DNA from: Sulfurovum sp. UBA12169
GTDB taxonomy: Bacteria > Campylobacterota > Campylobacteria > Campylobacterales > Sulfurovaceae
Length of the DNA stretch: 64,000 nt
Assembly: GCA_002742845.1 (NCBI GenBank)
Contig: DLUH01000005.1
Coordinates: 682,553 to 746,552 of the forward strand
Reading direction: 5' to 3'
Under the pieces are notes generated by a model, which saw only the letters and a list, made by a program, of their open reading frames with translations, was not told the DNA's origin and searched no databases. The translations under genes and the position numbers were made by a program. Shown here piece by piece: positions 1-39,102 of the stretch; positions within the stretch are counted from its first letter, which is position 1; each line of letters opens with the position of its first letter.

Positions 1-1053
1 CTCTCTCAGATCAAAAGCTTTTCAGAGATACTTACGCCGCCGATTGAGAGAAAAGGGGTGCGCACGTTTGTAAAAAGCTATGACGAGAAGATCATTAAAG
101 AAGCTATTGTGCGTGAACGTCGTCGGGGAGGACAGATTTTTTATGTCTTCAATTCTATTGCGGGCATTGATGAGAAGAAAAAAGAGTTGCTGCACATCCT
201 TCCGGGTATACGTATAGCGGTGCTTCATTCTAAAATTTCAGCCAAAGAGACCGAAGATGAAATGATGAAATTTGAAGAAGGAGAGTATGATGTACTGCTT
301 TCTACCTCCATTGTTGAATCGGGTATCCATATGCCTCACGCCAACACGATGATCGTTGACGGGGCAGACAGCTTTGGCATCGCTGATCTTCACCAGCTTA
401 GAGGACGTGTAGGACGCGGCGGCAAAGAAGGGTACTGCTACTTTATGGTCGCAGACAAAGAGCGTCTTACTGACAATGCCAAACGAAGGCTGCTTGCGCT
501 GGAATCCCACTCCGATCTTGGCAGCGGGGCAGTGCTTGCTTTTCATGATCTTGAGATCCGCGGAGGAGGCAATATTATAGGGGAAGCACAAAGCGGGCAC
601 ATCAAACAGATCGGCTATTCGCTTTATCTGCGCATGCTTGAAGATGCGATACGTGAACTAAGCGGAGAACACAAAGAAGCAGAACAGCATGTGGATATGA
701 AACTGTCAGTAGATGCTTATCTGAGTGCAGAGCTTATTGAAGAAGACAGGTTGCGGTTGGAACTTTACCGTCGGCTCTCTCTTTGTGAAACTGCAGGCGA
801 AGTGTATGAGATTGAATCCGAGATTGCAGATCGTTTTGGCAAACTTGACAGGATCACAAGACAGTTTATCGATATCATGGTCATGAAGGTGCTTGCAAAA
901 GAAAAAGGCATTGCCAAAGTCTCTTCGTATGGCGAAAATGTTTTTATCGAGTTTAAAGATGAACGCAAAGCGCGTGCGGTTTTGAAGTCATCAAGCAAAG
1001 ATGATGATGACATTATAGCAACAGCGATGACCTATTTGAAAGCATCTTTATAA
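1..1053 (+). CDS. mfd: Transcription-repair coupling factor Mfd, C-terminal part (5' end outside window)
   Basis: The reading frame is open from base 1, so only the last 350 residues or so are present. Mfd is an ATP-driven DNA translocase that removes RNA polymerase stalled at lesions and recruits UvrA. Visible are the end of helicase lobe 1 (TPPIERKGVRTFV), lobe 2 with the TSIVESGIHMPHANT segment and the arginine-finger motif QLRGRVGRG, and then the TRCF C-terminal domain that contacts UvrA. A GTG at 58 is an internal codon and not a start. No terminator hairpin follows the stop; the next 350 bases are the leader of the adhesin locus. Confidence 0.95.
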   Translation, partial: LSQIKSFSEILTPPIERKGVRTFVKSYDEKIIKEAIVRERRRGGQIFYVFNSIAGIDEKKKELLHILPGIRIAVLHSKISAKETEDEMMKFEEGEYDVLLSTSIVESGIHMPHANTMIVDGADSFGIADLHQLRGRVGRGGKEGYCYFMVADKERLTDNAKRRLLALESHSDLGSGAVLAFHDLEIRGGGNIIGEAQSGHIKQIGYSLYLRMLEDAIRELSGEHKEAEQHVDMKLSVDAYLSAELIEEDRLRLELYRRLSLCETAGEVYEIESEIADRFGKLDRITRQFIDIMVMKVLAKEKGIAKVSSYGENVFIEFKDERKARAVLKSSSKDDDDIIATAMTYLKASL

Positions 1054-1282
1054 GCGAATCAAATAAAACTATACAATTGAATACTCCGATTAGATTATAA
1101 GCTAGATTGAGGATTATGCCTGCAATGACGAAAATCACGCTATCTTAAACTAGATTAGGGATCTAAAACGATCATTATCCAGAGAGCCCAATTTCATCTT
1201 AATGCATTTTAAGCAACATTGCACTATGATAGTTCATAATTTTTCCTTATCTGGGAGAGAGTGGAAAAATTCGGATCAAACG
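1054..1282 (+). other. Gene-free leader upstream of the riboswitch
   Basis: No coding frame is supported here. The heptamer CTAGATT occurs at about 1102 and 1153 and again inside the aptamer at about 1336. A possible weak sigma-70 -10 (TATGAT, near 1227) lies in an AT-rich stretch, but no convincing -35 box goes with it, so the promoter of the adhesin locus is not located with confidence. Confidence 0.5.
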
Positions 1283-1353
1283 CGCGTTAAAGCCAAACTA
1301 CCCGCGAGAGTAGGACGGAAAACTACGGGTCTCTAGCTAGATTGCCGAGTTGC
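1283..1353 (+). promoter_or_regulatory. Class I cyclic-di-GMP riboswitch aptamer (GEMM-I)
   Basis: The segment follows the GEMM-I layout closely. AAAGCCAAAC corresponds to the conserved GGGCAAACC strand. A hairpin CUACCC/GAGUAG (one C-A mismatch) is capped by a GNRA tetraloop GCGA. It is followed by GGACGGAAAAC, matching GGGACGCAAAG, and by a second stem with an asymmetric internal loop at the tetraloop-receptor position (CGGGUCU pairing with AGAUUGCCG). It closes with GAGUUGC, matching GGGUUACC. The ligand-contacting positions of the Vc2 structure (G20, A47, C92) align to G1292, an A of the GGAAAA run and C1353. A guanine at the G20 position suggests c-di-GMP rather than cGAMP. The outer P1 stem is not obvious by eye. 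It lies 55 bases before the OmpA-domain gene. Confidence 0.8.
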
Positions 1354-1367
1354 ATTGTTAATTGTAT

Positions 1368-1407: not shown

Positions 1408-1914
1408 ATGAAGCCTAAATGGATACAACAAATTTTAGGATTTTTTGTATTGTTAGCAACAATTTCTACAAGCAGTATGGCCGATAAAACAGGCTATTTT
1501 ATCCCAAGAGTACAAAAAATCATGCTCAATACCACTATTAGTTTAAATACGGATGCGCTCTTTGAATTCAACGAAACAGAGCTAAAAGGAGAGGGCAAAC
1601 GATGTTTAAATCAATTCATATCCAATATCAAAGCGAATAAACTGAATGTAGCCTCCTTTGATATCACCGGATATACCGATAGAATCGGCAGTCGTAACAA
1701 AAATTTAAATCTTTCTCAAAGAAGAGCGGATTCTGTAGCTGCTTATCTCAAGTCACAAGGTGTTCAAAGTGTTTTTAATGTTCAAGGCAAAGGAGAAGCA
1801 AAACCTGTAACTAGAGGCTGCAGTGATAAAATGAAACGATCAGCTCTTATAGCATGCCTGGCTCCAGACAGAAGAGTTGAGATCATACTTCATGGTAAAC
1901 AAAACTTAAAATAA
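1408..1914 (+). CDS. OmpA-family protein with peptidoglycan-binding domain
   Basis: A 168-residue protein with a Sec signal peptide (hydrophobic stretch at residues 9-24, likely cleavage after SMA) and then an OmpA/MotB C-terminal domain from about residue 48. The characteristic TGYTDRIGS and NLSQRRADSV segments contact the meso-diaminopimelate of peptidoglycan in this family. There is no beta-barrel, so the protein is probably periplasmic. It starts at ATG after AAAGGA and sits 12 bases upstream of the RTX adhesin, with which it is probably co-transcribed under the c-di-GMP aptamer. Small OmpA-domain proteins often accompany type I-secreted adhesins; a role in anchoring the adhesin or the secretion machine to the wall is inference. 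Confidence 0.85.
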   Translation: MKPKWIQQILGFFVLLATISTSSMADKTGYFIPRVQKIMLNTTISLNTDALFEFNETELKGEGKRCLNQFISNIKANKLNVASFDITGYTDRIGSRNKNLNLSQRRADSVAAYLKSQGVQSVFNVQGKGEAKPVTRGCSDKMKRSALIACLAPDRRVEIILHGKQNLK

Positions 1915-4219: not shown

Positions 4220-4423
4220 AAGAGTGAATAAGCCTTATCTGCATTAAAACGAACAATATCCTATAACATAATAATTATAGTTCAAACGGAAATGAAGACC
4301 CTCGAATATAAAACACCCGTCGAAGTTTTTATGGTAGAATTTTAGGATTAGAGGATTTAGTTTGGGTGTATTGCAATAGTGAGCTTAATTCAGCTCTTTA
4401 AAATAGTTTACGAAGGCAGAAGT

Positions 4424-5695
4424 TTGAGGTATCAGCGTTTATGGATCGTTTATGTCTTGTGTATAGTGTATGCAAAGGCTGAGTTTATTACTATTGATAG
4501 CCAGGTCGGAGAAGGGCGTTCGTGTGTCAAGCAGATTTCTTCTTTGCTTCAAGATGCTTATGGACATTATCCAAGCATAGAGGTTTCAAAAAAGATGATT
4601 ATGGATGCTGATGCGCAGAGGCAGAGTGCGAAATGGAACTACTTTCCGACGCCGTCTATGGAGATCTCGCAAAGGGCGGGACGACGAGGAACAACCTTGC
4701 GGCTTGATCAGCCTTTGTGGACAGGGGGGAAGCTTGACGCGATCAGCGACCTGGCGTCGGCGCGTGAAGATGAAGCGGAATATACGTTGGGTGAGACCAG
4801 TTATGCATTGGCTCAAAAAGTTTTGAGTGTTTTGCAATACTATATCCAAGCAGACGGCGAGATAAAAGGTTTTAGCGAAGGCAAACAGCAGCTTGAAAGT
4901 TTGGCCAAGATGCTGGAAAGGCGTATCGAGGCAGGTGTTTCTTCTGAATCGGACCGAGAGCTTCTCCATGCACGTATCGCACAGATCGATGCGGATCTGA
5001 TGTTGGCGCAGTCGAAGTATGATATGGCGCTTTCCCAGCTTGAACTGCTTACCGGCAATTCCGAACCATGCGCCATCAGTTTTGCAAAAGACCGTATTGT
5101 GAGATACAAAATATCTCTTAAAAAAATGGAAGAAGAGCTTTTGCAAACACATCCTGCACTTAAAAAACTGACAGCCAAAATCGCAATGGCAAATGCTGAA
5201 AAAAAAGGTGCGGATGCAGTTATGATGCCAAATATATCGTTACGGGCAGAACATCAAAAGGGAACGATCTACGATATTGAGGCGCAAGATGATACGGTCG
5301 CGTATGTCGCAGTTTCATTTAGCCCGGGCGCCGGACTCTCGGCGATATCCAATATAGAAAGTGCTAAATACAGAGTACTTCAGGCACAAGATGAACTCAA
5401 GGTCAAAGAGCAGGAACTTAAAGAGAGTTTAGTCGTGGACTATGCGGATTTTATCGCGGCAGCTGCCCGCACAGAGAGCATACGCCAAACTATCGAAGCA
5501 TCCCAAAGAGTCCTCGAGTCGTACACGCGTCTTTTTATCGCAGGAAAACGCCAGTGGCTTGATCTTGTCAATACTTCACGCGAGGTAACACAAAATAAGA
5601 TCGCTTTGGCAACACTCAAAGCAGTATGGATCACATCTGCATACAGGCTGGCGTTACAAACAGGAAAAATCGAGTTTGGAAATGAAGGAAAATAA
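4424..5695 (+). CDS. TolC-family outer membrane channel of the type I secretion system
   Basis: An outer-membrane efflux protein (OEP family) of about 423 residues. A short signal peptide (RYQR, hydrophobic LWIVYVLCIVY, cleavage after AKA) is followed by two repeats of long amphipathic helices typical of the TolC tunnel, with the family-type ISQRAGRRGTTLRLDQPLWTGGKLD segment near the start. I prefer the TTG at 4424, which has GAAGG seven bases upstream and leaves a normal signal peptide. The frame is also open to a GTG at 4379, but that start has no clear RBS and would add 15 residues. The stop overlaps the ATG of the ABC exporter by one base (TAATG), indicating translational coupling. Confidence 0.85.
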   Translation: MRYQRLWIVYVLCIVYAKAEFITIDSQVGEGRSCVKQISSLLQDAYGHYPSIEVSKKMIMDADAQRQSAKWNYFPTPSMEISQRAGRRGTTLRLDQPLWTGGKLDAISDLASAREDEAEYTLGETSYALAQKVLSVLQYYIQADGEIKGFSEGKQQLESLAKMLERRIEAGVSSESDRELLHARIAQIDADLMLAQSKYDMALSQLELLTGNSEPCAISFAKDRIVRYKISLKKMEEELLQTHPALKKLTAKIAMANAEKKGADAVMMPNISLRAEHQKGTIYDIEAQDDTVAYVAVSFSPGAGLSAISNIESAKYRVLQAQDELKVKEQELKESLVVDYADFIAAAARTESIRQTIEASQRVLESYTRLFIAGKRQWLDLVNTSREVTQNKIALATLKAVWITSAYRLALQTGKIEFGNEGK

Positions 5696-7809
5696 TGTTC
5701 TATCAAGATATTGAAAGCGCAAAGCGTGATGTAGCGTGGCTTACGCAAGCATGTGCACTTCCGCCGTTTTCTGTTTTGAGGTTGACTTCTTATGAGCTTG
5801 AGATACTAGAACAAACACTGGAGAATACTGAAGAGAACACTATCCTTTCTTTATATGATCACCTGTTTGAGAATCTTGGGCTGAAAAGTACACAATGGAG
5901 CAAAAGTATCTCACATGCCCATCTTCCCGTTTTGGCATTGATTCCGGGTGAGGGGATACGCATCGTTATAGAAAAAGAAGCCGAAGGAAGTTGGAAAAGC
6001 GAAGGAAGAGATGGGCTAAGGAGTTGTAGGACATTTCCTAAAGGTACATGGTTTACCTCCATCAAATCCGAACGTAAAAGTATTGATAAATTGTCCGCCA
6101 AAGAGATGTTTAAAACTATCGCATTAGAGCAAAAGCCGATTATTTGGTATGCAGCAATCGCATCATTGAGTATCAATATTCTAGCGTTGGCGACATCATT
6201 TTTCAGTATGCAGGTTTATGATCGGGTGATTCCGACGCAGGGGCTATCAACTCTTGCGGCTCTGAGCGTAGGAGTATTTATCGCTATTTTTTTGGAGATG
6301 ATTCTCAAGCTTTCCCGTTCGTATATTCTTGATCGGGCTGCTACGAGTATGGATATGGCCTATTCCCACCATATTTTTGATCGTTTTTTAAAAATACGTC
6401 TGGATGCATTGCCAAGAAGCATCGGAACACTTTCAGGACAATTGCAAGGCTATGCAACGGTGCGGGCTTTTATCTCTGCAGTTGCGCTGTATGTGTTTAT
6501 TGATTTTCCTTTCTCAATGATTTTTTTGGCGGTCATCATCATGCTTGCGGGATGGATGATAGGAGCGATTGTTCTGGGGTTTTTGATCATCGCTGTTTTT
6601 GTCGGTATGATTTTTCGCAAGAAGATAGAGGAGCTTTCGAGAACCTCTACCTTGGCATTGCATCAGAAGCTTGGACTGCTTGTGGAGAGTGTTGAAAATG
6701 CAGAAAATGTGAAGGCGAGCGGAGCCGGATGGAAACTGTTGAGTCGATGGAATGCATTGAGTGAAGATGCCATTCATGATGATATACGGATTCGCCATTA
6801 TAGTGAAATGTCCAGCTATGTCTCAGGGTTTTTGCAGCAGTTGAGCTATATCTCTTTGGTAGCGATGGGAGCATATCTGGTGAGTACGACGGAAAATTTG
6901 ACTATGGGAGGATTGATCGCGACGACGATCCTTTCAGGCAGGGCACTTTCTCCTATTGCTATGTTGCCAAACTTGCTTGTTCAATGGGGAAAAACCAAAA
7001 TGGCGGTTGAGGATCTAGACAGAGTTTATGCATTGGAGCGTGACAATGAAGGTGTGGAGCGTCCGCTTTCTCCTGGTGTGATAGCACCGCATTTTCGACT
7101 TGAAAATGCTCAGTTTAGCTATGGAGAAAATGCGCCGTCGGTTAATATGGGGGGAATAACTATTGCACCCGGAGAGCGTGTAGCCATTTTGGGCATGATC
7201 GGTTCAGGAAAATCTACGTTGCTTAAGATGCTGGCCGGACTCTATAGGCCGAAACAAGGAAAAGTGTTTATCGGCGGTATGGATATGCAGCATATTTCAC
7301 GAAACCGTTTAAATGAAATGATCGGATATTTACCTCAAAATGTAAAATTGATCTCAGGGACACTTCGGGATAACATTTTGCTCGGTCTTGCTGGGATCAA
7401 CGATGAAATGGTACTAGATGCTGCCAAGCAGACGGGGCTGATCCATCTGATCAATGTCTTGGCGCAAGGCCTTGATGCACCTGTGCCCGAAGGAGGAGAA
7501 AGCGTCTCGGGCGGACAGAAACAGATGATTGCATTGACACGTTTGATTCTTATGAAGCCTAAGGCATGGCTTTTAGATGAACCGACTGCCAATATGGATG
7601 AGCGAACGGAACGACAGATGCTCGAAGCGATAGATCGAAGATTAAGCCCTGAAAGTACGCTAGTGGTTGTGACACATAAGCCGGCATTGCTTGGATTGGT
7701 CAACCGTGTGATAGTAGTAAGGCCCCAAGGGGTCGTGATGGATGGACCAAAAGAGGTGATTTTGGCTAAATTAAATCCGACAGCTCAGGTCAAAAAACAA
7801 GGAGCGTAA
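5695..7809 (+). CDS. Type I secretion ABC exporter, LapB/HlyB-like
   Basis: A 704-residue fused permease-ATPase. Residues 1-140 form a C39-like domain with no catalytic Cys-His pair, as in LapB and HlyB, where it binds substrate instead of cleaving it. About six membrane helices lie at residues 150-430. The ATPase has Walker A GMIGSGKST near residue 500, Q-loop GYLPQ, signature VSGGQ near 603, Walker B WLLDEPT near 625 and the H-loop VVTHK. The upstream RTX protein is the obvious substrate. Both neighbours overlap it by one base, so tolC-abc-hlyD is one tight operon. Confidence 0.92.
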   Translation: MFYQDIESAKRDVAWLTQACALPPFSVLRLTSYELEILEQTLENTEENTILSLYDHLFENLGLKSTQWSKSISHAHLPVLALIPGEGIRIVIEKEAEGSWKSEGRDGLRSCRTFPKGTWFTSIKSERKSIDKLSAKEMFKTIALEQKPIIWYAAIASLSINILALATSFFSMQVYDRVIPTQGLSTLAALSVGVFIAIFLEMILKLSRSYILDRAATSMDMAYSHHIFDRFLKIRLDALPRSIGTLSGQLQGYATVRAFISAVALYVFIDFPFSMIFLAVIIMLAGWMIGAIVLGFLIIAVFVGMIFRKKIEELSRTSTLALHQKLGLLVESVENAENVKASGAGWKLLSRWNALSEDAIHDDIRIRHYSEMSSYVSGFLQQLSYISLVAMGAYLVSTTENLTMGGLIATTILSGRALSPIAMLPNLLVQWGKTKMAVEDLDRVYALERDNEGVERPLSPGVIAPHFRLENAQFSYGENAPSVNMGGITIAPGERVAILGMIGSGKSTLLKMLAGLYRPKQGKVFIGGMDMQHISRNRLNEMIGYLPQNVKLISGTLRDNILLGLAGINDEMVLDAAKQTGLIHLINVLAQGLDAPVPEGGESVSGGQKQMIALTRLILMKPKAWLLDEPTANMDERTERQMLEAIDRRLSPESTLVVVTHKPALLGLVNRVIVVRPQGVVMDGPKEVILAKLNPTAQVKKQGA

Positions 7810-8978
7810 TGAAGCAAACAAAACATCCGTATCAAACAAGGATTGATCCTCTGTGGATTATTTTTGGCAGTTTGGGAATAGTGATTGTACCATTTTTTAT
7901 CTGGGCATCTTATGCCAGGATCGATCAGATTTCTCATGCCAGAGGGCAAGTGATTGCCGCAGCCAAAACACAGGAGATCCAGTCGGCGATAGACGGAGTC
8001 GTTGAAAAGATATTTGTACGAGAAGGCGATCATGTCAAAAAAGATGATCATTTGATCGTCTTGGAAAAATCACAGGCTCAAGCGGCATACGAAGATAGCA
8101 AAGCAAAAGTTGCAGCACTTAAGGCGGCTTTGGGGAGATTGAAAGCCGAAGTCTATGAAAAACCGCTTGTTTTTGATGACTCACTTAAAGAATATCCCGA
8201 ATTTGTGGAAAACCAAAAAGCACTATTCCAAAGACGTCAGCGTGCACTCAATGATGATATCACTGCGCTCAATGAATCGTTGGCTTTGGCAAAAGAAGAA
8301 CTAAGCCTGAACCTCCCTCTGCTCAAAAGCGGAGATATCGGAGCTACCGAGATTATCAGGCTTAAGCGGCAGATAGCAGATCTTAAAGGTAAAATTTCAA
8401 ATACAAGAAATAAGTATTTTCAAGATTCACAGGCAGAGATGACGAAAGCCGAAGAGGAGCTCTCAACCAAGAAGCAAGAGCTGGTGAATAGAACGATTAC
8501 ACTGGAGCGCACAACGATCTCTTCACCGATGAATGCGGTCGTTAAAAATATTCTTGTTACCACACAGGGCGCGAGAGTCCGTCCCGGAGATGTTATCATG
8601 GAGCTTGTACCATCGGGTGACGAACTGATCATTGAAGCGAAGATCAGCCCTTCGGATATCTCGTTTGTTAAAAGAGATCAGCCCGCAGCGGTGAAGCTCG
8701 ATGCGTATGATTATAGTATTTACGGCATTTTCCACGGAACCGTCAAATACATCAGTCCCGATGCACTCGTAGAGCAGAGCCAGGAGGGTGAAAAATATTA
8801 CTTTAGGGTTTTGATAACAATGAAGCAAATCGAACTTTTGGCAAAGAACGACAGAACAATCGAATTGACACCCGGGATGACTGCGCAGGTTGATATTATA
8901 ACGGGAAATAGAAGCGTTTTAACCTATCTTTCTAAACCGATTATTAAAACATTTTCTGAGGCATTGCATGAACGATAA
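7809..8978 (+). CDS. Type I secretion membrane fusion protein, HlyD/LapC family
   Basis: A 389-residue periplasmic adaptor linking the ABC exporter to TolC. A short cytoplasmic tail and one membrane helix (about residues 14-35) are followed by a barrel-sandwich half-motif (GQVIAAAKTQEIQSAIDGVVEKIFVREGD region), a long coiled-coil hairpin (about 85-245) and the second half-motif (TISSPMNAVVKNILVTTQGARVRPGD). A beta-barrel and the family C-terminal LTPGMTAQVDI motif close the protein. It is the last gene of the exporter operon; no terminator hairpin follows. Confidence 0.92.
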   Translation: MKQTKHPYQTRIDPLWIIFGSLGIVIVPFFIWASYARIDQISHARGQVIAAAKTQEIQSAIDGVVEKIFVREGDHVKKDDHLIVLEKSQAQAAYEDSKAKVAALKAALGRLKAEVYEKPLVFDDSLKEYPEFVENQKALFQRRQRALNDDITALNESLALAKEELSLNLPLLKSGDIGATEIIRLKRQIADLKGKISNTRNKYFQDSQAEMTKAEEELSTKKQELVNRTITLERTTISSPMNAVVKNILVTTQGARVRPGDVIMELVPSGDELIIEAKISPSDISFVKRDQPAAVKLDAYDYSIYGIFHGTVKYISPDALVEQSQEGEKYYFRVLITMKQIELLAKNDRTIELTPGMTAQVDIITGNRSVLTYLSKPIIKTFSEALHER

Positions 8979-9419: not shown

Positions 9420-10367
9420 GTGAGTTATATTATCAATGATATCAAATCTGAAATATCCAAAGTTTTGGTTGGGCAGGAGAAGATGATCGAAGGATTGCTT
9501 GCGGGTTTGTTATGTCGCGGCCATATTTTGCTGGAGGGAGTTCCGGGATTAGCCAAGACGACAGCAGTCAATGCTTTGGCAAAGAGCCTGGGACTCAATT
9601 TTAAACGTATTCAGTTTACCCCCGACCTTCTTCCTTCTGATATTATAGGAACAGAGATCTATGATCCTACCAGCAACTCGTTTAAGATCAAAAAAGGACC
9701 GGTTTTTACCAATCTGCTGCTTGCCGATGAGATTAACCGTGCCCCTGCAAAGGTTCAGTCAGCATTGCTGGAGGTGATGCAGGAGCGTCAGGTAACGATA
9801 GGAGATGAAAGTTTCAAGATCGATCCTCCTTTTTTAGTTATGGCGACCCAGAATCCGGTCGAACAAGAAGGAGCCTACGAACTGCCTGAAGCACAGCTTG
9901 ATCGGTTTATGATGAAAGTGGTTGTGGGATATAATACTAAAGAAGAAGAGCTTGAAATCGCGCGCCGTGTAGCCAACAATAGCTTTGAAAGCATAGCACA
10001 AGTGGCAACAGTTGAAGATTTAAATCGTATTGCAGATGAAGTGATGCAGGTGCATCTTGATCCTGAGATAGAAGCTTATATCGTTGAACTGGTTACAGCT
10101 ACACGCGATCCAAAAGCCTATGGACTTGAAGAGATTGCTCCCTATATAGAGTTTGGCGCCAGCCCCAGGGCGAGTATTGATATGTATAAAGCTTCGCGGG
10201 CAATTGCTTATCTTAAAGGAAAAGACTATGTTTCTCCTATAGAGATAGCTTATATTGCCAAAGAGATATTGCGTCATCGTGTGATTCTCTCTTATGAAGC
10301 ACAGGCAGAAGATGTTACGCAAGATCAGATCATAGAGAAGATATTGGCCGCAGTACCGATACCTTAG
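9420..10367 (+). CDS. MoxR-family AAA+ ATPase (Bat operon)
   Basis: A 315-residue ATPase thought to act as a chaperone or metal-insertion factor for VWA proteins. Walker A is GVPGLAKTT (about residues 39-47), Walker B LLLADEIN (about 98-105), and the sensor region is [22 protein letters not shown]. It starts at GTG with AGGAG upstream and is the first gene of moxR-DUF58-DUF4381-batA-batB-TPR-batD, the order of the Bacteroides aerotolerance (Bat) operons. Confidence 0.9.
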
Positions 10368-10433
10368 AAATTAATAATTAAGTGTTGGTTTGTATGCGTC
10401 GGAGTGTTTGTATCAGCGTAAGAGGGACATGGT

Positions 10434-11267
10434 TTGAATAAAACAGCAAAAAAGATAATCCTCAAAACTAAAAAACAAGTTTATGGAGAGATGCTTGGCA
10501 ATAATGCTTCTCTTTTTCAGGGTGAGGGATTTGAATTTTCAGAACTTCGCGAGTATGTGTATGGAGATGATGTACGCAAAATAGACTGGAAAACCACTGC
10601 TAAGCTCGGTAAACCCTATGTTAAGGTTTACAAAGAAGAGAGAGAGCTCAATGTCGTGGTGGTTTCGATGCTCGGCGGATCTGTTTATTTTGGGACCGTT
10701 AGACAAAAATCTGATGTGATAGCAGAAGTGGTTGCCATACTTGGATTTTCTGCCGTAAAAAATAGTGATCTCTTTTCTCATTTTGTGTTCGCAGATGATT
10801 TATATAGTGTCGGCAAACCAAGTAAAAAACATTTTGCTATCCATCAGGCAGTAGAAGAAGTTGTCCGTTTTGAGCCATTAGGCAAAGAAGCCAATTATGC
10901 TGCCTTGGTCGAGATGCTGGTTAAGCGGATAAAAAAGAAAGCCCTTCTTTTTATCCTATCGGATTTTGTAGGAGATATAGATCTTAAATTTCTTAGCAAA
11001 AAACATGATCTGTTTGCCGTGATTGTGCGTGATAGGTTTGAAGAAAATCCTGACCAATTAGGCTATTTGAGACTCATAGATATGGAAAATCAAAAAAGTT
11101 TTGAAGGAGATATAGATGTACAGACACTTAAGCACTATAAAAAAGCACTTCATGAGAATGATGAAAAGCTCTACAGGCAGTTCAAAAAGCGAGGGATCCG
11201 GTTTACTAAAATCTATACCGATGAAGAGCCGTTATTGAAGCTCATGAGACAGATGAGGAGGGCATAG
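10434..11267 (+). CDS. DUF58 domain protein of the Bat operon
   Basis: 277 residues with the diagnostic DUF58 block GEGFEFSELREYVYGDDVRKIDW (about residues 24-46) and a degenerate VWA-like fold behind it. TTG is the only sensible start, with AGAGGGA upstream. DUF58 proteins always travel with MoxR ATPases and VWA proteins; their biochemical role is not established. Confidence 0.88.
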   Translation: MNKTAKKIILKTKKQVYGEMLGNNASLFQGEGFEFSELREYVYGDDVRKIDWKTTAKLGKPYVKVYKEERELNVVVVSMLGGSVYFGTVRQKSDVIAEVVAILGFSAVKNSDLFSHFVFADDLYSVGKPSKKHFAIHQAVEEVVRFEPLGKEANYAALVEMLVKRIKKKALLFILSDFVGDIDLKFLSKKHDLFAVIVRDRFEENPDQLGYLRLIDMENQKSFEGDIDVQTLKHYKKALHENDEKLYRQFKKRGIRFTKIYTDEEPLLKLMRQMRRA

Positions 11268-11269
11268 GA

Positions 11270-11824
11270 ATGAGAAAGGGGAGATCAGGAATCAGGAGTG
11301 CCGGTATCCTTTTCTTTGAAAAGCGTTTATTGCACAGAGGTACTGCAACGCAGTGCACTCTAAAGCCCTTTACCCTTTACGCTTCGCTTCTCATTGTTTT
11401 GATGACTGCAGCGCAGGCAGAAGAACAGAATTTAACGGCGCAACTTCGCGATATCAAACCGCTTTTGGAGATACCTGACAGCAGTTTTTATTTTTATTGG
11501 GGTCTGCTCGGTTTTGGTCTGCTGTTGGTCGGGGGGATTCTTTTTTTTGCGATTAAAAAGATTTTGGAGAACCGAAAGGTCAATCTTGCCAAAAAGTATC
11601 TTGCAGCCCTTAAAGCGATCGATTGGAACGATTCCAAAAAATCAGCCTATCAGGCAACGCAGTATGCAAGGCTTTTAGCGACAGATGCACGCAAAAAAGA
11701 GTTGTTTTTTCAGCTTGAAACGATGCTGGAAAAATATAAATACAAAAAAGAAGTAGAGGCGCTAGATGATGAGACGCGTAATCAATTCAATCTTTTTGTG
11801 CAGGTAGCCGATGAATCAATTTAG
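11270..11824 (+). CDS. DUF4381-like membrane protein of the Bat operon
   Basis: 184 residues with a predicted signal/anchor at about residues 33-50 (LYASLLIVLMTAAQA), a second membrane helix at about 73-98 and a cytoplasmic helical tail. Position and topology fit the DUF4381/BatC-like component between DUF58 and the VWA genes. The N-terminal 30 residues (RKGRSGIRSAGILFF...) are odd: the DNA there contains a small hairpin (ACTGC-AAC-GCAGT) and a CCCTTTACCCTTTA repeat. The true start may therefore be an internal codon closer to the hydrophobic stretch. Confidence 0.7.
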   Translation: MRKGRSGIRSAGILFFEKRLLHRGTATQCTLKPFTLYASLLIVLMTAAQAEEQNLTAQLRDIKPLLEIPDSSFYFYWGLLGFGLLLVGGILFFAIKKILENRKVNLAKKYLAALKAIDWNDSKKSAYQATQYARLLATDARKKELFFQLETMLEKYKYKKEVEALDDETRNQFNLFVQVADESI

Positions 11825-12728
11825 TTTTGAGTATCCGTTTTTACTTTTGGCTATTTTATTTTTTGTCATCTGTGCCCGATGGTGCAAACAAAGATCGCGT
11901 GCGATTTTTTTCCCTCATGTCGAACGATTGATCGTGCAAAACTCCCCTAAAAACTCTTTGCTTGAATGGCTCAAGTGGATAGGTATCGTTTCAGCAGTGG
12001 TCGCTTTTGCTTCACCTGTCATCACCAAAAGCTATACGAGCAGCAAAAAAGAGGGGCGCGATATCGTATTGATTCTTGATGCGAGTGATTCGATGCGTCA
12101 AGGCGGATTTGATGCAAGCGATCCTTGGAAAAATAAATTTGATGTTACCAAAGAGGTGGTCAGTGCATTTGTGGCAAAACGAATAAATGACCGCATAGGG
12201 ATGGTGACATTCGCAGATGTTGCATTTATCTCTTCTCCTTTGACTTTTGAAAAAGATTTTTTGCAAAATATCATCCAAATGCAGCAGCTTGGTATGGCGG
12301 GTAAGCGCACAGCGATCAATGATGCAATTGTGCAAAGCTACAGCATACTCTCTCGAAGTAAAGCCAAATCCAAAATTGCTATTTTGCTAACCGACGGCAT
12401 AGAAAATATAAGTAAAGTATCTTTTGAAGAGCTTTTAAAAATGATACAGAAACATGATATTAAACTCTACACCATCGGCATAGGCGGTCAACATGATTAC
12501 GACAGGCGTTATTTGCACGCTTTGGCTAACGCGGGCAAAGGTCAGGCTTATGGTGCGGGCAATGCAGCCATGCTCTCAAAGATCTACGAAGAGATAGACA
12601 AACTTGAAGTAACCAAAATGGATAACAAAAAGACAGCAGAATATACATATCTTTATGTTTACCCTCTTTTTTTGGGGATTTTGAGTTTGCTGTTCTTTAT
12701 CTATTTTAGAAATGCCAAAGGAGTATAG
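11811..12728 (+). CDS. batA: VWA-domain membrane protein BatA-like
   Basis: 305 residues: an N-terminal helix pair (about 6-22 and 58-72), a periplasmic or cytosolic VWA domain with an intact MIDAS motif DASDS (about residues 90-94), LLTDGIENIS at about 188, and a C-terminal membrane helix (about 282-298). The start codon lies inside the 3' end of the preceding gene. Bat VWA proteins support oxidative or envelope stress tolerance in the organisms where they were studied. Confidence 0.88.
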   Translation: MNQFSFEYPFLLLAILFFVICARWCKQRSRAIFFPHVERLIVQNSPKNSLLEWLKWIGIVSAVVAFASPVITKSYTSSKKEGRDIVLILDASDSMRQGGFDASDPWKNKFDVTKEVVSAFVAKRINDRIGMVTFADVAFISSPLTFEKDFLQNIIQMQQLGMAGKRTAINDAIVQSYSILSRSKAKSKIAILLTDGIENISKVSFEELLKMIQKHDIKLYTIGIGGQHDYDRRYLHALANAGKGQAYGAGNAAMLSKIYEEIDKLEVTKMDNKKTAEYTYLYVYPLFLGILSLLFFIYFRNAKGV

Positions 12729-39025: not shown

Positions 39026-39102
39026 GGCAAGGTAGCTCAGCTGGTTAGAGCGCTGGTCTCATAAGCCGGAGGTCGGGGATTCGAGTTCCCCCCTTGCTAC
39101 CA
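39026..39102 (+). tRNA. tRNA with CAU anticodon (tRNA-Met, elongator type; Ile2 not excluded)
   Basis: The 77-base cloverleaf starts GGCAAGGTAGCTCAG and has anticodon loop CTCATAA, T-loop TTCGAGT and an encoded CCA end. The acceptor pair 1-72 is G-U. The anticodon stem lacks the three G-C pairs of initiator tRNA. A CAU anticodon can also belong to lysidine-modified tRNA-Ile2. It is probably the attachment site of the prophage that follows. Confidence 0.93.

Follow-up and report, generated by a model that had tools for sequence, protein, structure and literature searches.

Class I c-di-GMP riboswitches of the GEMM-Ia type (RF01051), represented by Vc2 and Vc1 of Vibrio, have a P2/P3 architecture with a GNRA loop and its receptor, an interhelical C44–G83 pair, and residues G20, A47, and C92, all of which recur in the aptamer described here. 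Vc1 lies before the adhesin gene gbpA and acts as an ON switch (PMC4744006). The 3′,3′-cGAMP riboswitch of Geobacter (GEMM-Ib, PDB 4YAZ) carries C15–G40 in P2, A9–A14 in J1/2, and A41 in J2/3 (PMC6274999); both ON switches and tandem copies have been described in its group. A further Rfam family, c-di-GMP-I-GGC (RF03167), has a similar overall model with the consensus GACGCGAA, and we infer that the letters GGC in its name denote residues 20, 47, and 92.

For the Campylobacterota, we found no paper on c-di-GMP riboswitches in the open literature (most subscription papers lay outside the search), in agreement with the preliminary description of the present locus, which knew of none. A 2022 study of signaling in this phylum tallies the enzymes of c-di-GMP, makes no mention of riboswitches, and states that not all c-di-GMP effectors are known (PMC9239204); the view that c-di-GMP signaling is poorly mapped in these bacteria holds, then, for the effectors but not for the enzymes. 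Automatic annotation may already carry Campylobacterota copies, since the Rfam models find them directly. The riboswitch class is known, and the copy reported here is a new instance of it; the broad use of the class in this phylum, often in genomes without PilZ, the usual protein sensor, seems to be undescribed.

The window, that is, the whole stretch of 64,000 nucleotides analyzed from a Sulfurovum genome, contains a single match to RF01051 (E = 1.3e-7 over the whole 64 kb), the sole other Rfam match being a tRNA at 39026. The aptamer is situated between mfd and a gene for an OmpA-domain protein, 50 nt before the start of the latter (Table 1). Every motif named in the preliminary description is in place, as are the equivalents of G20, A47, and C92, and the search with RF01051 that it proposed gave a score well over the cut-off; a GEMM-I aptamer in a Campylobacterota genome is therefore supported, with a Sulfurovum metagenome-assembled genome (MAG) as the nearest named relative. 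The base of P2 is formed by two pairs, C21–G46 (1293–1318) and C22–G45 (1294–1317), beyond which lie an internal loop (AAA/GAC) and a stem (1298–1313) closed by the GNRA loop GCGA (1304–1307); one nonstandard pair, C1302·A1309, occurs within P2. The interhelical C44–G83 pair corresponds to C1316–G1344 in the Rfam alignment and is conserved in 96 of 97 relatives.

Table 1. Positions of the aptamer, its landmarks, and the surrounding genes in the window
Feature	Position	Strand	Basis or remark
mfd (TRCF)	1-1053	+	upstream neighbor of aptamer
c-di-GMP-I (GEMM-I) riboswitch aptamer	1282..1357	+	RF01051 53.4 bits, cut-off 35
AAAGCCAAAC	1289-1298	+	read in sequence
G20, ligand-discriminating residue (A in cGAMP aptamers)	1292	+	G in 97/97 relatives
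P2	1293..1318	+	Rfam alignment; pair counts over 97 relatives
GGACGGAAAAC	1313-1323	+	read in sequence
A47, stacked between both ligand guanines (G in GGC-variant model)	1319	+	A in 97/97 relatives
P3 (tetraloop-receptor arm)	1321..1351	+	Rfam alignment
GAGUUGC	1347-1353	+	read in sequence
C92, ligand contact residue	1353	+	C in 94/97 relatives
Leader, aptamer to start codon	1354..1407	+	stem-loop and SD sequence; no intrinsic terminator
OmpA-domain protein, 168 aa, first gene after riboswitch	1408..1914	+	PF00691, E 1.9e-18
RTX-repeat protein, 735 aa	1927..4134	+	PF00353; RTX models at domain level
TolC-type outer membrane factor, type I secretion	4379..5695	+	PF02321; TIGR01844 below cut-off
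Type I secretion ABC transporter (LssB/LapB-like)	5695..7809	+	TIGR03375 612 bits, cut-off 693
HlyD-type membrane fusion protein	7809..8978	+	TIGR01843 297 bits, over cut-off

Three features set the window aptamer apart from Vc2 and Vc1: a C21–G46 in place of a G21–C46 pair, a poorly formed P1, and the lack of a clear expression platform. The weakness of P1, noted early on, is real: position 93 is occupied by A1354, so that the usual G14–C93 pair is absent. We did not treat this as excluding membership in RF01051, because P1 lies outside that model, C93 is missing from 39 of the 97 relatives, and the P1-poor aptamer Cd1 of C. difficile, whose P1 is undetectable, still binds (PMC9262584). G14 accompanies C93 in 31 of the 58 relatives that have the latter, versus 2 of the 39 that do not (p = 2.6e-7); P1 therefore exists in many members, though not in the window aptamer.

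The relatives referred to above are 97 unique gap-free aptamers from the class Campylobacteria, in which 98.3% of pairs are standard over 19 pair columns (P2, P3, and C44–G83). When pairing partners are slid by one or two positions, standard pairs drop to 24 to 48%, and cells in which both partners have changed number 262 in the true register versus 22 to 39 in the slid controls, such that covariation, whose absence the preliminary description had named as one refutation, is present. A48 and A49 are conserved in 97 of 97 aptamers, as are G20 and A47, but these conservation figures lean toward the model: the register was taken from RF01051 match boundaries, and admission to the set required G at position 20 and AAA at positions 47 to 49. 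Seven aptamers excluded by this rule also have G20 and A47 when judged by eye, one of them (in G329) being a doubtful match. In such a model-guided set, the double changes are stronger evidence than residue conservation, and the aptamer is not a chance resemblance.

At the orthologous adhesin locus, where a comparison of leaders had been proposed, the Sulfurovum MAG (L133), with a 91%-identical copy of the OmpA gene, keeps the aptamer ahead of the same genes. Its aptamer (53.7 bits) differs from that of the window at 2 of 76 nt, neither of them in a pair, whereas the region further upstream diverges much more. At another locus of the window's own genome, before a DUF4382 lipoprotein gene, four genomes retain the aptamer amid drifting flanks. 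Elsewhere in the set, ten aptamers (L090, L131, L132, L136, L137, L138, L119, and L123) show joint changes on the two sides of the P2 internal loop (C24 with C or U43 in place of A24 and A43, or comparable replacements); P3 is longer in most of them, and they could form a subtype.

The sequence GACGG in place of GACGC (1314–1318), initially listed as a departure from the consensus, is better read together with GCC in place of GGC (1292–1294): these are the two sides of one base pair, G21–C46, which has become C21–G46 (1293–1318) and which the Rfam alignment marks as compensated. Among 108 RF01051 matches in 397 sampled genomes of the class, the 21–46 pair is C–G in 105, G–C in 2, and U–G in 1, the last in a weak and probably false match; the adjacent pair, 22–45, alternates between C–G and U–A across relatives. 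Positions 21 and 46 are not among the highly conserved ones in a survey of riboswitch conservation (PMC3764141). The C21–G46 core is lineage-typical and near-fixed in Campylobacterota but is not new: C15–G40 of the Geobacter cGAMP aptamer occupies the same place, and the same orientation appears in L203, a copy on a Pseudoalteromonas plasmid (59.8 bits), and in several viral contigs (judged by eye, about 6 with real C–G aptamers and 14 with G–C). The proposal of a lineage-specific variant thus holds insofar as the pair is typical of the lineage, and we reject it insofar as it implies that the pair is unique to it. A search of phages for aptamers with the 21–46 pair found none. The only two G21–C46 aptamers (L050 in G200 and L080 in G186) both precede DUF4214-like genes and, in a genus that otherwise has C–G, possibly represent a separate import.

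With G20 and A47 present in all 97 aptamers, the window aptamer is predicted to bind c-di-GMP. The C–G pair closing P2, shared with C15–G40 of the Geobacter aptamer (PMC6274999), would fit a GEMM-Ib riboswitch that senses 3′,3′-cGAMP, but position 20 is A in cGAMP aptamers (A14 in Geobacter numbering) and G here (G1292), as it is in 97 of 97 relatives. The predicted targets differ from those of Geobacter as well. The genome's enzymes also argue against cGAMP as the ligand: both GGDEF proteins with intact GGDEF and FKxxND..GHxxGD motifs retain the Asp of GHxxGD, in place of which Ser marks the hybrid cyclases. We therefore reject cGAMP on the identity of G20 and regard it as very unlikely.

An assignment to c-di-GMP-I-GGC, whose ligand may differ, is suggested by the score of RF03167, which exceeds that of RF01051 on the window (58.3 versus 53.4 bits) and on many relatives, including most of the highest-scoring ones. 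The window nonetheless falls just below the RF03167 cut-off of 59 bits (although many relatives do exceed it), and at position 47 the consensus of that model reads G, where the window has A1319 and the relatives have A in 97 of 97 cases; the 21–46 pair, too, is G–C in the variant consensus and C–G here. The better score may be owed to a shared short P3 and to a P1 that is included in the model. On A47 and the cut-off, we reject the GGC variant, which we consider very unlikely, and, as judged by their pocket residues, the Campylobacterota copies are predicted to be ordinary c-di-GMP-I aptamers. Some small chance attaches to a decayed or orphan aptamer, still recognizable but no longer switching: the A at position 93, the C·A mismatch in P2, and a leader with neither a terminator nor a predicted change at the Shine–Dalgarno (SD) sequence would be expected of such a relic, but every core residue is retained, the aptamer of L133 differs at only the two sites mentioned, and both the frequent absence of C93 and the binding by Cd1 speak against decay. 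We are confident that the window contains a working class I c-di-GMP riboswitch.

As with Vc1 and gbpA, attachment genes lie downstream of the aptamer. The OmpA-domain, RTX, and TolC/ABC/HlyD genes all occupy the plus strand, and their matches to PF00691, PF00353, and the secretion-gene models bear out the OmpA-domain/RTX operon that had been read from the sequence; the RTX protein is a probable type I secreted surface protein. An OmpA gene copy as close as that of L133 was detected in only 1 of 77 other genomes of the genus (G467), and the operon is therefore not widespread in the genus. LapG-type control of the adhesin was considered and rejected, there being no LapG peptidase in the genome. 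Further along the window, a MoxR–DUF58–VWA gene set (9420–12728), likewise on the plus strand, comes immediately after the secretion genes, and a prophage-like stretch (39159–63923) beside the tRNA encodes a DnaG primase, a Rha regulator, a DnaB-like helicase, a capsid protein, and a GH108 endolysin. Of the genome's two further aptamers, one precedes a gene for a lipoprotein of the DUF4382 type and the other a gene for a CAP-domain-type protein (both assigned by likeness to relatives).

In the proposed mechanism, the P2/P3 tuning fork would fold in the nascent or mature 5′ untranslated region, the GCGA loop would dock into P3, and c-di-GMP would be clamped between G20, A47, and C92. Binding would then alter expression of the operon, presumably the whole of it from the OmpA gene through the secretion genes, and would thereby link an RTX protein, whether secreted or bound to the surface, to the sessile state, in which c-di-GMP is high.

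How binding might be converted into a change in expression is less evident from the leader, which contains a stem-loop (UUGUUGA/UCAGCAA, 1367–1385) and an SD sequence (AAAGGA, at about 1396–1401) but no detectable intrinsic terminator. Its minimum-energy fold pairs CGUUA (1285–1289) with UGACG (1402–1406) and CC (1293–1294) with GG (1399–1400); this fold is no better than those of shuffled sequences (z = 0.62), and the predicted accessibility of the SD is about equal with and without the aptamer (0.61 versus 0.66), leaving SD sequestration a guess. Two sibling loci in other genomes, L116 (−22.3 kcal/mol, z = −4.7) and L093 (−19.5 kcal/mol, z = −3.7), carry strong terminators that incorporate the aptamer's 3′ strand, and ligand binding and termination are therefore predicted to be mutually exclusive; transcriptional ON switches, among them Geobacter pilM, are laid out in this way (PMC9262584). 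Over all loci, a predicted OFF arrangement, with the SD hidden in the bound state, occurs in 16%, versus 6% in a swapped-leader control; ON can therefore not be assumed, and these models indicate that the phylum probably has switches of both kinds. For the window copy, control is likely to be translational, because no terminator is seen, and by elimination and by analogy with the adhesin biology of Vc1 and gbpA, we lean somewhat toward ON. Just upstream of the aptamer, at 1238–1271, is a perfect 9-bp inverted repeat (AATTTTTCC...GGAAAAATT; fold of −9.2 kcal/mol, z = −1.7), one U–A pair of which is U·G in L133; this repeat could form a hairpin at the 5′ end of the mRNA or serve as an operator.

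In the class, 43 of 397 sampled genomes, spread over 13 of 68 genera, carry an RF01051 match. Within the family of the window the count is 106 of 175 genomes, and a single genome of ~2.1 to 2.2 Mb can hold as many as 21 aptamers. The window's own genome has five GGDEF and four EAL matches. GGDEF matches number five or more in each of the 43 positive genomes, and no aptamer was found in the ~174 genomes (counted by hand) with fewer than five (p = 3e-12, uncorrected for shared ancestry). PilZ was detected in 108 of the 397 genomes but in none of the sampled genomes of the window's family (searched with one profile, which can overlook PilZ domains). Of the 43 aptamer-positive genomes, 36 are without it. 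When only genomes with five or more GGDEF matches are compared, PilZ is present in 7 of the 43 aptamer-positive genomes versus ~99 of 180 others (p = 3e-6, again uncorrected for shared ancestry), which suggests that RNA sensors substitute for PilZ in genomes that lack it. We tentatively raise the possibility that in part of the Campylobacterota, above all in the Sulfurovum-like family of the window, riboswitches are the main dedicated c-di-GMP receptors, with a regulon of as many as ~21 aptamers per ~2-Mb genome taking the place of the PilZ proteins on which other bacteria rely and with a C21–G46 core that may tune affinity.

The first genes downstream of the aptamers, which were picked mechanically and some of which will be wrong, encode PilJ-type and PAS proteins, Ig-like/DUF11/SdrD surface proteins, CAP proteins, outer membrane beta-barrels, DUF4214 proteins, a prepilin peptidase, and HU. 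The aptamers name direct candidate targets of c-di-GMP in Sulfurovum-like and other free-living lineages, including secreted RTX and Ig-like surface proteins, PilJ-type sensors, PAS proteins, prepilin peptidase, and HU. One locus, L090 (577–784, in G225), has a tandem pair of c-di-GMP-I aptamers ahead of a gene for a predicted surface protein, an arrangement also known from Geobacter. At two others (L102, 879–1157; L118, 4571–4846), the gene directly after the aptamer encodes an HU-type DNA-binding protein, an unusual target for c-di-GMP.
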